In this document: piece after piece, positions 22,983 through 33,843 of the stretch
Layout: each line of letters starts with the position of its first letter
Numbering within the stretch: the first letter of the stretch is position 1
Notes under the pieces: model-generated
The model's input: only the letters and a program-made list of their open reading frames with translations
What the model was told of the DNA's origin: nothing
Database searches by the model: none
Origin: Pseudonocardia humida
GTDB taxonomy: Bacteria > Actinomycetota > Actinomycetes > Mycobacteriales > Pseudonocardiaceae
Length of the DNA stretch: 64,000 bases
Assembly (NCBI RefSeq): GCF_023898865.1
Contig: NZ_JAGSOV010000051.1
Span: forward strand, 1 to 64,000
Direction of reading: 5' to 3'
Made by a program: the position numbers and the translations under genes

Positions 22983-23312
22983 CTACTCCAGGGCACCCCT
23001 GCTCAGCACCACCCGGGCGTTCACCAGGTCCCGGTGGAAGACGAGCAGCCGGTAGCCGCCCTCGACGCGGCCCACCGTCGCCCTGATCCCCGCCTCCCGG
23101 AGCCGGTCGCGCAGCACCTGCGCGGCCGGCTCCGTCGGTACCCGGGACACCTCCTCGAGCAGGCCGTCGCCGGTGGGGTCGTCGGGGTCGGCGATCCGCG
23201 GACCGGGCTGGTCGCGGCCGGTGCCGAACGTCCAGCGCAGCCCGAGGACCAGCAGCCCCAGCACCATCATCCCGCCGAAGAGGACGAAGAAGCGGGTCGC
23301 CTGGTCAGCCAC
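22983..23312 (-). CDS. Single-pass membrane protein with DUF2007-like domain
   Basis: A 109-aa protein: one transmembrane helix (FFVLFGGMMVLGLLVLGLRW) and a small soluble domain, VPTEPAAQVLRDRLREAGIRATVGRVEGGYRLLVF, that resembles the putative signal-transducing DUF2007 fold. GTG 23312. It is divergent from ecm across 132 nt. Function unknown; the family match is by eye. Confidence 0.65.
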   Translation of the reverse strand: MADQATRFFVLFGGMMVLGLLVLGLRWTFGTGRDQPGPRIADPDDPTGDGLLEEVSRVPTEPAAQVLRDRLREAGIRATVGRVEGGYRLLVFHRDLVNARVVLSRGALE

Positions 23313-23444
23313 CCGGTCATTGTCCGCCCGCGACGGCGGCCCCGCTCCCCGCGAGGTGTGACGGGCGATCCATTCGTGCCGGTCACGGACCTACGCGCCA
23401 GTAGCATGGTTTACCACGCAGCCCCCCAATGGCGGAGGTGTCCG

Positions 23445-25445
23445 GTGCCGTACCCGAGCGACCGCGAGCGAGACCGACCCTGGGTGATCCGGACCTACGC
23501 CGGGCACTCCTCCGCGGAGAAGTCCAACGCGCTCTACCGGCGCAACCTGGCCAAGGGCCAGACCGGGCTGTCGGTGGCGTTCGACCTGCCCACCCAGACC
23601 GGCTACGACCCCGACGACGAGCTGGCCAAGGGCGAGGTCGGCAAGGTCGGGGTGCCGGTCAGCCACATCGGCGACATGCGCACCCTGTTCGACGGCATCT
23701 CGATGGCCGACGCGAACACGTCGATGACCATCAACGCGCCGGCCATGTGGCTGCTGGCGCTCTACGTCGCCGTCGCCGACGAGAACGGCGCCGACCGCAC
23801 CCGGCTGGCCGGCACGACGCAGAACGACATCGTCAAGGAGTACCTCTCGCGCGGCACGTACGTCTTCCCGCCCGGCCCGAGCATGCGGCTGATCACCGAC
23901 ATGGTCGCCTGGTCGGTCACCGAGCTGCCGCGCTGGAACCCGATCAACATCTGCAGCTACCACCTGCAGGAGGCCGGGGCGACGCCCGAGCAGGAGCTGG
24001 CCTACGCGCTCTGCACCGCCATCGCCGTCCTGGACTCGGTGCGCGACTCCGGCCAGGTGCCCCCGGAGCGCTTCGGCGACGTCGTCGGGCGCATCTCGTT
24101 CTTCGTCAACGCCGGGCTGCGCTTCGTCGAGGAGATGTGCAAGATGCGGGCCTTCGCCCGCCTCTGGGACGACATCACCCGCGAGCGCTACGGCGTGCAG
24201 GACCCCAAGCAGCGGCGCATGCGCTACGGCGTCCAGGTCAACTCCCTCGGCCTGACCGAGGCCCAGCCCGAGAACAACGTCCAGCGGATCGTGCTGGAGA
24301 TGCTGGCCGTCACACTCTCCCGCGACGCCCGCGCCCGCGCCGTGCAGCTCCCGACCTGGAACGAGGCGCTGGGCCTGCCCCGGCCGTGGGACCAGCAGTG
24401 GGCGCTGCGGATGCAGCAGGTGCTGGCCTACGAGACCGACCTGCTGGAGTACGAGGACCTGTTCGCCGGCAGCCACGTCGTCGAGGCGAAGGTCGCCGAG
24501 CTGGTCGAGGGCGCCCGCGCCGAGATCGACCGGGTCCAGGAGATGGGCGGCGCGGTGGCCGCCGTCGAGTCCGGGTACATGAAGGGCAGGCTGGTCACCT
24601 CGCTGGCCGAGCAGCGCCGGGCCATGGAGTCGGGGCGCACCGTCGTCGTCGGGGTCAACCGCTTCGAGACGACCGAGCCCAGCCCGCTGCAGGCCGAGGG
24701 CGCCGCGGCGATCGAGACCGTCGACCCCGCCACCGAGGCGGCCGCGATCGAGGCCGTGCGGGCGTGGCGGGCCGGGCGCGACGCGGCCACCGTGCAGAGC
24801 GCCCTGGACGCGCTGCGCGACGCGGCCAAGACCGACGCCAACCTGATGGAAGCCTCGCTGACCTGCGCCCGCGCCGGCGTCACCACCGGCGAGTGGGCCG
24901 GCGTGCTGCGCGCGGTGTTCGGCGAGTTCCGGGCCCCGACCGGCGTCTCGGCCGCCGTCGTCGGGGCCGACGGCGACGCCGCCACCGAGATGGGCGCCGT
25001 CCGCGACCGGGTCCGCGCCGCGGGCGAGGAGATCGGCTCCAAGCTGCGCATGCTGGTCGGCAAGCCCGGCCTCGACGGCCACTCCAACGGCGCCGAGCAG
25101 GTCGCCGTGCGCGCCCGCGACGTCGGCTTCGAGGTGGTCTACCAAGGCATCCGGCTGACGCCCTCGCAGATCGTCGCCGCCGCGGTGCAGGAGGGCGTGC
25201 ACGTGGTGGGGCTGTCGGTGCTGTCCGGCTCGCACCTGGAGGTCGTGCCGGCCGTGGTCGACGGCCTGCGCGCCGCGGGCGCCGACGACGTCCCGGTGGT
25301 CGTCGGCGGGATCATCCCGCCCGAGGACGCCGCCGTCCTGCGGGAGCGCGGCGTCGCCGCGGTGTTCACGCCCAAGGACTACCGGCTGACCGAGATGATG
25401 GGCGCCATCGTCGACCTGGTGCTGGCCGCCCACCGCGAGAGCTAG
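23445..25445 (+). CDS. ecm: Ethylmalonyl-CoA mutase
   Basis: Adenosylcobalamin-dependent conversion of (2R)-ethylmalonyl-CoA to (2S)-methylsuccinyl-CoA. A single 666-aa chain holds both the mutase barrel and the C-terminal B12 domain. The B12 His motif is DGHSNG, with D544 and H546. The N-terminus reads WVIRTYAGHSSAEKSNALYR. By recall, RTYAGHS-SNALYR followed by LAKGQTGLSVAFDLPTQTGYD marks Ecm (formerly MeaA), whereas methylmalonyl-CoA mutases have RQYAGF. GTG 23445 is 6 nt after GGAGG (23434-23438); longer frames upstream are not supported. Methylmalonyl-CoA or isobutyryl-type substrates are the alternatives, less likely. Confidence 0.9.
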   Translation: MPYPSDRERDRPWVIRTYAGHSSAEKSNALYRRNLAKGQTGLSVAFDLPTQTGYDPDDELAKGEVGKVGVPVSHIGDMRTLFDGISMADANTSMTINAPAMWLLALYVAVADENGADRTRLAGTTQNDIVKEYLSRGTYVFPPGPSMRLITDMVAWSVTELPRWNPINICSYHLQEAGATPEQELAYALCTAIAVLDSVRDSGQVPPERFGDVVGRISFFVNAGLRFVEEMCKMRAFARLWDDITRERYGVQDPKQRRMRYGVQVNSLGLTEAQPENNVQRIVLEMLAVTLSRDARARAVQLPTWNEALGLPRPWDQQWALRMQQVLAYETDLLEYEDLFAGSHVVEAKVAELVEGARAEIDRVQEMGGAVAAVESGYMKGRLVTSLAEQRRAMESGRTVVVGVNRFETTEPSPLQAEGAAAIETVDPATEAAAIEAVRAWRAGRDAATVQSALDALRDAAKTDANLMEASLTCARAGVTTGEWAGVLRAVFGEFRAPTGVSAAVVGADGDAATEMGAVRDRVRAAGEEIGSKLRMLVGKPGLDGHSNGAEQVAVRARDVGFEVVYQGIRLTPSQIVAAAVQEGVHVVGLSVLSGSHLEVVPAVVDGLRAAGADDVPVVVGGIIPPEDAAVLRERGVAAVFTPKDYRLTEMMGAIVDLVLAAHRES

Positions 25446-26318
25446 ACGGGGAGCCGGGCGACCGGTCGGACGAGAGCGGGTTTCGTGCCGCTTGGCGGGA
25501 CGAGGCCGCTCTCGCACCGTCCCGCTGGGCCAACCCGTCCAGGTGAGCGAACGGCGCCCTCGCCCAACTGGGCTGGGCGGACGCGCCACTCGCTCGCCGG
25601 GTGGGACGAGAGTCGCTCTCGCGCCCCGGCGATCCGGCGCGCAGCGCCGCGAGCCGGGCGAGGCACGGGGCGCGCAGCGCCCACCTCACCCCGGAAGTGC
25701 TCCCCTGCTGGAGCTGGGGTCCTCACCGGAGGTGCCGCCGGAGGCGCCCTGAACAGGTGGCTGTCGTGGGCGACGCGCTCAGCTCAACCCCGAGGCCCAG
25801 CTCAGTGACGGTGAAGAGCGCCTCCGGCGGCGCCTGCGCGGCGGGCGACCTCTGATCGGGCAGGGGCCTCGGGAGAGGAGTGGCGCTACGCGCCCACCAG
25901 GGCTCCGCCTTCGGCGCTCACCCCGCCGCCCCGCCTCGCGGCGCTGGCGCACCACCGCGGCGGGACGAGCGCGACTTTCGTCCGGCCCGGCGGGACGAGA
26001 GCGACTTTCGTCTCGCCCGGCGGGACGAGAGCCACTCTCGTTCGCGGCGGGCTCGGCGAAGGAGGCCGGGGGAGTGGCGCGAGAGTGGCTTTCGTCCCGC
26101 CCAGTCGGACGAGAGCCACTCTCGTCCGACCCCAGAGCGAGAGGGCCTCTCGCCCAACCTGCTCGGGCGACAGCGCCACTCGCTCAACCTCGACGAGCCC
26201 CGCGCTCCCGCGGAGCCGAGCGAGCGGCGCGCTCACCCCACCGCGCTGGGCGAGTGCGCCGTTCGCTCGGCCCGTGGCCGTAGGACGCCGCCGACCAGGC
26301 CGAGACCGCCGGGACCGC
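25446..26318. repeat. Intergenic array of short diverged palindromes
   Basis: This 873-nt convergent gap between ecm and the repeat-protein gene contains no credible gene. Two related motif types recur. Type A is GACGAGAG-N3-4-CTYTCGTC, seen near 25468, 25496, 25601, 25962, 25992, 26022, 26079 and 26105, plus a diverged copy at 26135. Type B is GAGCGA-N-GCGCC-N-TCGCYC in either strand, near 25543, 25577, 26164, 26217 and 26247. The copy at 26105-26129 has perfect 11-bp arms (TCGGACGAGAG) and a 3-nt loop. Open frames across the region are low-complexity Arg/Ser/Glu shadows of the repeats. The central stretch from about 25630 to 25955 is GC-rich with fewer clear units. Confidence 0.75.
25961..26050. 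repeat. 30-bp tandem repeat, three units
   Basis: Units start at 25961, 25991 and 26021. Each begins CGGGACGAG, carries a type A palindrome (CGACTTTCGTC in the first), and is joined by a GGCCCGG/CGCCCGG linker. The exact 30-bp step suggests local duplication within the palindrome array. Confidence 0.75.
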
Positions 26319-27278
26319 TCAGTCTTCGGCGTCGGCGGCCTCTTCCTTCTCCTCGCCGCGGCGGCGCAGCATGCGGAAGCCGGGGATGCCCTGGATGGCC
26401 AGGCGGGTGTCCTTGAGGACGTCGAGCAGTTCGTGCACGTCCGGGCCGACCCGGTCGAGGGTGGCCAGGATCGGCATGATGTCGGTCGTCATGTGGTCGG
26501 CCAGCTTGGGCAGGTGGTCGACCAGCCGGACGGCGGCGTCGATCTCGGCCCGGGAGAACTCGTTCACGAACGCGGTGGCCAGCGGGGCGGCCTTCTCGGC
26601 GATCGGCTCGTAGACCGCGAGCATCTCCCCGGCCTTCCCGGTGAGCTCGCCCGCGCGCCCCACCAGCACGCCGGCCCGGTCGGCGACGCCGGAGGCGCTG
26701 TCGACGATCCCGGCCGCGTCGGTGGCGACGGTGTCGACGCGGGAGACGAGGGCGGTGGCGTTCCCGGCCACCGTGTCGACGCGGGAGACGAGTTCGCCCG
26801 CGCTGTCGGCCACGCCGTTGACGCGGGAGACGAGTTCGCCCGCGCTGTCGGCCACGCCGTTGACGCGGGAGACCAGTTCGCCCGCGCTGTCGGCGACCCC
26901 GTCGACGCGGGCGACCAGCCCGGCGGCGTCGCCCGCCACGGCGTCGACCCTGGCGATCAGGCCGGAGGCCGTCCCGGCGACGCCCTGCACCTCGTCGATC
27001 AGCGGCCGGATCCGGTCGACCGCCTCGCGCACGCCGTCGACGAGCGTGTCGACCGTGCCGACCAGGGAGTCGACGGTGCCGATGAGGGAGTCGATCGTGC
27101 CGAGCAGGGTGGTGATCCGCCGGACGAGCCCGTCGGCGTCGTCGAGCAGCCCGGTGACGCGCTTGGGCAGCTCCGCGACCACCCCGACGGCCTCGTCGGT
27201 CCAGCCCAGCACCGCGCGGGCTCCCTGCACGAGGTCGGACGGGCTGACCCACACGGGCAGCCCCGCGATGCGCACCAT
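26319..27278 (-). CDS. Amphipathic tandem-repeat coiled-coil protein
   Basis: A 319-aa protein not recognised as a known enzyme. The N-terminus (VWVSPSDLVQGARAVLGWTDEAV) leads into an extended helical repeat region at about residues 60-200. There 14-residue units such as DSAGELVSRVNGVA recur; two consecutive units are identical at DNA level (42 nt each, 26781-26822 and 26823-26864). The pattern of hydrophobic positions is amphipathic, like apolipoprotein or phasin helices. A basic-acidic tail (RRRGEEKEEAADAED) ends it. No signal peptide. ATG 27278. The gene lies among acyl-CoA metabolism genes, so a storage-granule or membrane-surface role is conceivable but unproven. Confidence 0.8.
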   Translation of the reverse strand: MVRIAGLPVWVSPSDLVQGARAVLGWTDEAVGVVAELPKRVTGLLDDADGLVRRITTLLGTIDSLIGTVDSLVGTVDTLVDGVREAVDRIRPLIDEVQGVAGTASGLIARVDAVAGDAAGLVARVDGVADSAGELVSRVNGVADSAGELVSRVNGVADSAGELVSRVDTVAGNATALVSRVDTVATDAAGIVDSASGVADRAGVLVGRAGELTGKAGEMLAVYEPIAEKAAPLATAFVNEFSRAEIDAAVRLVDHLPKLADHMTTDIMPILATLDRVGPDVHELLDVLKDTRLAIQGIPGFRMLRRRGEEKEEAADAED

Positions 27279-33406: not shown

Positions 33407-33450
33407 CCGGCCCCGGCCCGACCACCACCGGATCGCTACCGTTTCCGCTC

Positions 33451-33759
33451 GTGCCCCGCTCCAACCGGCCCCGGCGGGGTCGCCCCGACCCGCGCGACCG
33501 CGGCGTCCCCGACCGCCCCCTCGGCGGGGTGGCGCCGACCCGCCGGGAGAGCGGCCCCGACGGCGACTGGCTGGTGCGCCCGGTGCCGGGATCGGGCGCG
33601 GTCAAGGCGTACCGCTGCCCCGGGTGCGACCAGACGATCGCCCCGGGCACGGCGCACCTCGTGAGCTGGCCGGACGACGGCCCGGTGACGGAGCGTCGGC
33701 ACTGGCACACCGCGTGCTGGGCGGCGAGGGGCCGCCGCAGGCCCGGCGGACGGTGGTGA
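33451..33759 (+). CDS. Small zinc-ribbon protein
   Basis: A 102-aa basic protein: N-terminal Arg/Pro-rich tail, then a metal-binding-like core with CPGC (YRCPGCDQTIAPGTAHLV) and HWHTACW at the C-terminal end, giving a CxxC-Hx-HxxC set. Such short proteins are common in actinobacteria, often mislabelled ATP/GTP-binding. Function unknown. GTG 33451, 44 nt after the dehydrogenase gene. It is read in a different frame from the large overlapping shadow frame of that gene. Confidence 0.75.
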   Translation: MPRSNRPRRGRPDPRDRGVPDRPLGGVAPTRRESGPDGDWLVRPVPGSGAVKAYRCPGCDQTIAPGTAHLVSWPDDGPVTERRHWHTACWAARGRRRPGGRW

Positions 33760-33790
33760 CGGGCGCGGCACCGACCCGCGCCCGACTGGT

Positions 33791-33837
33791 ACGAGTGCGG
33801 CTGTCGGTGCGCCGGAGCGCACGAGAGCCGCGCTCGT
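33791..33837. terminator. Two-stage hairpin between convergent genes
   Basis: Outer arms ACGAGTGCGGCT (33791-33802) and AGCCGCGCTCGT (33826-33837) pair with one G-U. The inner stem GTGCGC (33807-33812) / GCGCAC (33817-33822) has a 4-nt loop. It lies between the zinc-ribbon gene and the end of the convergent DivIVA-like gene. Probably a bidirectional terminator. Confidence 0.6.
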
Positions 33838-33843
33838 CGCGGG

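Follow-up and report, generated by a model that had tools for sequence, protein, structure and literature searches.

A mosaic island of palindromic, putatively REPIN-like repeats between two convergent genes of Pseudonocardia humida

Organization of the ecm-DUF948 intergenic region

The window analyzed in this study is the whole 64,000-nt stretch of Pseudonocardia humida DNA. In this window a B12-dependent acyl-CoA mutase gene and a DUF948-like repeat-protein gene converge on a non-coding gap of 873 nt. The name ecm (ethylmalonyl-CoA mutase) for the mutase gene was taken from the initial annotation. The genes and the features of the gap are listed below, with the strand where one applies.

23034-25445, plus strand: B12-dependent acyl-CoA mutase gene (Pfam MM_CoA_mutase and B12-binding); the codon-usage gene caller places its start at 23445
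25446-26318: whole non-coding island, 873-nt gap from the mutase stop (25445) to the stop of the DUF948-like gene (26319)
25469-25487: type-1 palindromic unit with 2 mismatches (motif match)
25545-25595: type-2 inverted pair, REPIN-like, units 25545-25565 and 25575-25595, one hairpin of -31.0 kcal/mol
25605-25623: type-1 unit with 2 mismatches (motif match and unit scan)
25626-25962, plus strand: composite core with modules A, B and C starting at about 25628, 25703 and 25860; dispersed repeat
25964-26042: three type-1 units at exact 30-nt spacing, starts 25964, 25994 and 26024
26078-26126: two type-1 units at 30-nt spacing, starts 26078 and 26108
26135-26185: type-2 pair, starts 26135 and 26165, fold of -30.0 kcal/mol
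26218-26268: type-2 inverted pair, REPIN-like 51-nt hairpin, starts 26218 and 26248, -40.5 kcal/mol
26319-27278, minus strand: DUF948-like repeat-protein gene (Pfam DUF948)

The coding region of the DUF948-like gene itself holds 42-nt tandem repeats at positions 26733-26948 of the window.

The initial annotation had described the gap as a dense array of two palindrome families without a supported gene. The density was borne out: 13 near-palindromes were found by scan, neighbours lie 28-30 nt apart inside clusters, the clusters sit on both sides of the core at 25626-25962, and a degenerate 14th unit could be read by eye from about 25499. Units of type 1 form a nearly perfect palindrome (GACGAGAGnnnCTCTCGTC) and follow one another head to tail, and type 2 consists of GAGCGAnnGGCGCnnTCGCCC and its reverse complement, occurring as pairs that are mostly inverted. 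Because both fit CGAnnGnnnCnnTCG, the two types are treated here as variants of one unit and the division into two families was given up. The description as a palindrome array also holds only in part, since the stretch from 25626 to 25962 is a different dispersed repeat with inverted repeats of its own. With up to three mismatches, motif 1 had nine matches in the 64-kb window, eight of them inside the gap; dinucleotide shuffling gives an expectation of 1.29 (sd 1.20) for the window. Motif 2 at three mismatches was not above chance across the window (16 matches versus 11.95 expected, with 17 of 100 shuffles reaching 16); its exact and one-mismatch copies in the window all fall within the gap. 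On both strands, the fold of the whole gap was more stable than those of 30 mononucleotide shuffles (z of -12.4 and -9.7).

Four open reading frames that overlap the gap lacked a Pfam match and the codon-usage caller placed no gene there, by which a coding gene was ruled out. An Rfam search of the region returned nothing near the gathering score, only two weak, chance-like miRNA matches, and no classical intrinsic terminator (GC hairpin plus U-tract) was predicted in 25300-26500. A second convergent gap of the window (33407-33843, 437 nt) has a single relaxed core pair at about 33792-33838, which may be a decayed member of this palindrome family.

Copy number and spacing in the P. humida genome

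The genome of P. humida (8.29 Mb in 129 contigs) contains 25 exact motif-1 sites, 75 at up to one mismatch and 121 core pairs at 30-nt spacing, with a count of zero in the reversed-pattern control for each; the conservation of the core letters CGAnnGnnnCnnTCG is built in, being set by the search pattern. Spacing was left free in 849 kb of the genome, taken from contigs with motif matches already known and thus not an unbiased sample of density. In these 849 kb, 36 core pairs lay at 30 nt, 17 at 60 nt and at most four at any other distance, and 160 cores were found against 14 in the reversed control, in which no two cores came within 70 nt of each other. Allowing one mismatch, 57 pairs were distributed over 13 gaps and one stretch end and none was in a called gene, about 85% of the scanned sequence being coding. 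The motif is thus above chance in the genome, biased to intergenic DNA and clustered, and the region is not a decayed gene, so that neither outcome named by the initial annotation as refuting its reading was found.

A BLAST search of the island against its own genome gave 209 matching pieces at E values up to 0.001, and the gaps holding island elements are 241-2006 nt long. Several contigs of this genome (for example C16, C52, C54, C60, C64, C83, C88 and C103) begin within a few hundred bases of the repeats, so assembly breaks probably hide further copies in the draft.

Taxonomic distribution

The core-pair pattern was detected in 53 of 62 Pseudonocardia genomes, that of P. humida included, and was missing from the other nine. 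Five or more pair matches were present in 39 of the 62, with a maximum of 192; counts of one or two per genome may be chance. Some genomes had matches to the reversed pattern too (up to 2 across the genus, and 11 against 4 forward in one genome of the family). In the genomes with listed copies, the element is mostly one inverted pair of 45 nt. A stricter tandem form, searched in 84,980 species genomes, a set that may omit near relatives of the window, was found in 57 stretches, all from Pseudonocardia or Amycolatopsis xylanica. Across the family (own genus included) 85 of 249 genomes have the general pattern, and the genera with high counts include one with matches in all 15 genomes (11-96), another with eight of 16 (15-118) and a third represented by a single genome with 206. 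Among 197 other genomes of the phylum, 12 matched at a chance-like one to three copies, and the copies listed were not palindromic by eye.

Carriage on plasmids or phages was considered and dropped, there being no BLAST match. At least 120 stretches of viral contigs had the pattern; none of the 82 examined among the matches listed was palindromic, and they were taken as chance. The top-ranked matches of a search of the open-access literature, which leaves most subscription journals outside, contained no report of such palindromes in Pseudonocardia or the family.

The inverted pair and its paired changes

The pair element is a 45-nt inverted pair with a 20-bp stem and a 5-nt loop. Genome G152 has 20 dispersed pair copies of near-identical sequence with unrelated flanks, and 38 of its 43 half-units are listed as 19 complete pairs, two more having a partner with more mismatches and three being without a listed partner. 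Covariation was assessed in an alignment of 22 rows (21 genomes and A. xylanica, one copy each), hand-chosen and mostly picked as clear palindromes, in which the long hairpin had 93.9% of cells paired and 89 cells changed on both sides. Its covariation score was 0.516 versus at most 0.123 for slid controls, and the alternative of two small hairpins scored 0.126 with slid controls of up to 0.188. The observed number of pairs changed on both sides was reached by 45 of 500 shuffles, and the observed changed-cell count and covariation score by none of 500. In copies that were not hand-picked, the fraction of free positions pairing was 0.74 in G152, 0.73 in G168 and 0.675 in other genomes (29 copies from 28 loci, with P. 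humida and G152 left out), against 0.03-0.31 for slid controls. These values indicate that the sequence turns over between genomes while the pairing stays; inverted-repeat-templated repair can mimic such compensatory change.

Long-range pairing was weaker in P. humida (0.46) and in the P. lacus group (0.61). Direct identity between neighbouring units was 0.70-0.71 in both, and in the P. lacus group pairing within units (0.69) exceeded the long-range pairing. Thus, tandem arrays of symmetric units appear to have been added in these genomes to an older inverted pair, which we hold to be the older form because of its wide spread. Of the 26 gaps in A. xylanica (L047-L102), 20 contain two pairs at 30 nt, an arrangement suggestive of unit triplets.

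Modules of the composite core

In a comparison of 39 gap sequences, the window included, at least one core module was present in 32. All five modules (A, D, B, E and C) occurred in four gap sequences; the copy in the window consists of A, B and C, and its D and E are missing at points where a full copy (L246) has CCCCTGC or GCAGGGG in direct repeat, a pattern compatible with their deletion in the window copy as well as with nested insertion in the others. Island cores contain additional inverted-repeat modules with CCCCTGC and GCAGGGG as their boundaries (modules B, D and E in the L246 gap of contig C7), and a piece of module B of about 50 nt recurs alone in several gaps of P. humida and in P. 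lacus loci.

Comparison with P. lacus and other relatives

Over 3001 nt, a sister genome of the same genus (G169) matches a contig of P. lacus H11425 without a difference. In P. lacus the genes that flank the island overlap by 4 nt, compared with the 873-nt gap in P. humida, and because of this overlap the island is most simply read as a gain, by insertion or expansion, in the P. humida lineage, the copy most likely having arisen after the split from P. lacus. Thirty ecm loci were fetched, in 12 of which the DUF948 gene was not found. Among 17 relatives with both genes, the gap measured -4 to 103 nt in 12 and 738-995 nt, without the core, in five; these longer gaps are taken to hold another gene, judging from the printed starts.

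At a second island of P. humida (1153 nt), P. lacus has about 12 nt between the aligned blocks. Other contig comparisons with P. lacus, made from gaps between aligned blocks, gave shared sites, sites specific to P. humida and sites specific to P. lacus. Three elements in aligned DNA of G168 and G180 were absent from G180, a decayed half there, and shared with divergence, respectively. Such site differences between species argue against fixed inheritance of all copies at orthologous sites.

Placement relative to genes

A total of 138 resolved gaps, pooled from A. xylanica, P. lacus and allied contigs, G152, G168, P. humida, G042 and G275, were classified as 71 convergent, 56 tandem and 11 divergent. 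Excluded from this set were 24 pairs at stretch ends and three in called genes, and no locus was counted twice across the stretches of A. xylanica, the P. lacus group, G152, G168 and P. humida. Against a census of 766 gene pairs in the P. humida genome (148 convergent, 474 tandem and 144 divergent), the odds ratio was 4.4 for convergent and 0.37 for divergent gaps, in a pooled set that is not phylogenetically independent, with a null from P. humida only and genes called by our own script. In tandem gaps the elements were nearer the upstream stop than the downstream start in 42 of 56 cases. The median distance to the stop for convergent elements was 13 nt in A. xylanica, 23.5 in G152, 25 in G168, 43.5 in the P. 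lacus group and 113.5 in P. humida. Ten of 12 convergent gaps in G042 and G275 are only 55-105 nt long, the 14 convergent gaps of A. xylanica are 66-152 nt long, and three of 44 pairs in G152 and G168 lie inside called genes. Known REPs have the same placement near 3' ends, often between convergent genes (text available from PMC3733652). From the placement, the transcription-insulating role proposed for the island in the initial annotation is plausible.

In the flanks of the G152 elements (L283-L302), C prevails ahead of the hairpin and G behind it (C-G skew 0.38 and -0.33). Whichever strand is transcribed, the RNA therefore has a C-rich segment leading into the hairpin, as would be expected of Rho loading sites.

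Search for a mobilizing enzyme

The REP-associated transposases were sought through Y1_Tnp (PF01797), the domain of RAYT, and the association with transposases was tested with this domain only. Y1_Tnp was present in five of 62 Pseudonocardia genomes and two of 43 genomes of element-bearing genera, and was not found in the element-rich assemblies of few contigs (G162, G175, G168 and G042). The only Y1_Tnp of P. humida scored 132 bits with the IS200/IS605 model (cut-off 55) and 28.2 with the RAYT model (cut-off 80), and it adjoins TnpB, which identifies it as an IS200/IS605 transposase. On the rarity of Y1_Tnp and the identity of this copy, a RAYT link to the elements was rejected. The proposal of a REP-type cluster was thus upheld for architecture, copy number, intergenic bias and 3'-end placement and failed for the transposase expected with it.

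Neither a mobilizing enzyme nor a target-site duplication was found; in G152, the one genome inspected by eye for this, the flanks continue as an inverted, not a direct, repeat. A search of G152 for an autonomous parent, an insertion sequence ending in the palindrome halves as a MITE of a DDE transposon would require, found none, and no half-units lay a few kb apart there.

Relation to known repeats and terminators

REP, BIME and REPIN sequences have been described as short imperfect palindromes that form inverted pairs and one hairpin, occur in tens to hundreds of intergenic copies, and have lineage-specific variants and higher-order clusters (accessible text of PMC3116915 and PMC3733652). 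For REPINs, sequencing reads reportedly include putative transposition intermediates (PMC3116915). The elements studied here share with REPs and BIMEs their extragenic location, high copy number, 21-nt units (the criterion being a palindrome of 20-40 nt) and position after 3' ends with a preference for convergent and tandem gaps, and with REPINs the two inverted units forming one hairpin. They differ from REPINs in being without a cognate RAYT, and from REPs and REPINs generally in their fixed 30-nt period, their host, an actinobacterial family, and, in the P. humida lineage, the addition of tandem arrays of symmetric units and a composite core. In aligned copies inspected by eye there was no constant unpaired tag outside the stem, unlike in the GTAG and CGTC superfamilies of REPs. 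For CGTC-tagged REPs no dedicated transposase is known, according to the part of PMC3733652 consulted. Their dimers are common, as here, and the letters CGTC stand at the ends of type-1 units, but inside the paired stem and not as an unpaired tag. By word, the accessible text of PMC3733652 holds no 'Actinobacteria', Streptomyces, Mycobacterium, Frankia or prefix 'Saccharo', and that of PMC2817692 and PMC6006769 has no match for actinobacterial REPs or RAYTs.

Intrinsic terminators of many bacteria reportedly need no U-tract (PMC8355165, text in part). Our elements resemble bidirectional or clustered-hairpin intrinsic terminators in having clustered hairpins shortly after stops, and differ from these terminators in being a dispersed multi-copy sequence conserved within a genome.

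Origin and possible function of the island

From the observed dispersal, intergenic bias, architecture, paired changes, presence and absence between species and lack of Y1_Tnp, we infer a mechanism of mobility and a function at transcript ends: the elements are probably a mobile, RAYT-independent REPIN-like family whose hairpins would act at transcript ends in both directions and which has grown here into a mosaic island. The island would be a BIME-like cluster, mosaic in make-up, built from a dispersed REP/REPIN-like palindrome found in the Pseudonocardia family. As its ancestral element we propose the 45-nt inverted pair, made of imperfect palindromes with a 30-nt spacing, which can fold in either strand into a single hairpin of about 20 bp. 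This element may spread within genomes by an activity other than a RAYT transposase and be retained chiefly behind stop codons, most of all in convergent gaps, in which the symmetric hairpin could end or protect both transcripts as a two-way terminator, an insulator or a barrier to exonucleases. In the P. humida lineage and P. lacus, the units would have turned symmetric and expanded to tandem 30-nt arrays, which other inverted-repeat modules would have joined. Against the role at transcript ends stand the pairs of P. humida that are far from stops and the lack of a predicted U-tract terminator in the gap; the 3'-end placement might also reflect that other positions do not tolerate insertions. 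A broader version, which we put forward tentatively, is that one REPIN-like palindrome is shared by the family (Pseudonocardia, Amycolatopsis and related genera), its architecture fixed and its sequence replaced genome by genome, and that it may be moved by a non-RAYT enzyme and co-opted as a two-way terminator.

Less likely, and yet the strongest of the alternatives, is that the elements are selfish or neutral REPIN-like repeats without a host function, which accumulate after stops as selection removes the others and build islands by nested insertion and tandem slippage. The patchy copy number among congeners (0 to 192 pairs), the near-identical dispersed copies in G152, the presence and absence between sisters, and the P. 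humida gaps of 241-2006 nt with mosaic modules and arrays far from stops all speak for this reading; pairing kept despite sequence turnover and the tight placement in A. xylanica and G042/G275 are not required of neutral repeats. This neutral or selfish account is strongest for the large islands of P. humida, because these lie far from stops.

A platform for a nucleoid protein or regulator, with CGAnnGnnnCnnTCG as an operator-like palindrome of 15 bp recurring at intervals of about three helical turns, would account for the symmetric core and for the 30-nt spacing that emerged when spacing was left free; we regard it as improbable, as in the copies listed the letters inside and between units differ from genome to genome, nine of the 62 genomes of the genus have no elements, and divergent gaps, where promoters lie, are depleted. 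Mobilization as classical RAYT-dependent REPINs, for which architecture, copy number and placement would speak, is largely refuted by the scarcity of Y1_Tnp (five of 62 and two of 43 genomes) and by the IS200/IS605 copy beside TnpB, and is by far the least probable reading, which would now need a RAYT so divergent that PF01797 misses it.

If the elements are indeed a RAYT-independent REPIN-like family, their interest is twofold. REPINs are regarded as tied to RAYT transposases, and a large family of REPIN architecture without RAYT, turning over between sister species and present in several genera of antibiotic-producing actinomycetes, would point to a second spreading route for miniature palindromes. 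Because the elements lie after stop codons, they also allow a direct test, in a high-GC group, of whether REP-like sequences serve as terminators or insulators, a question of long standing.
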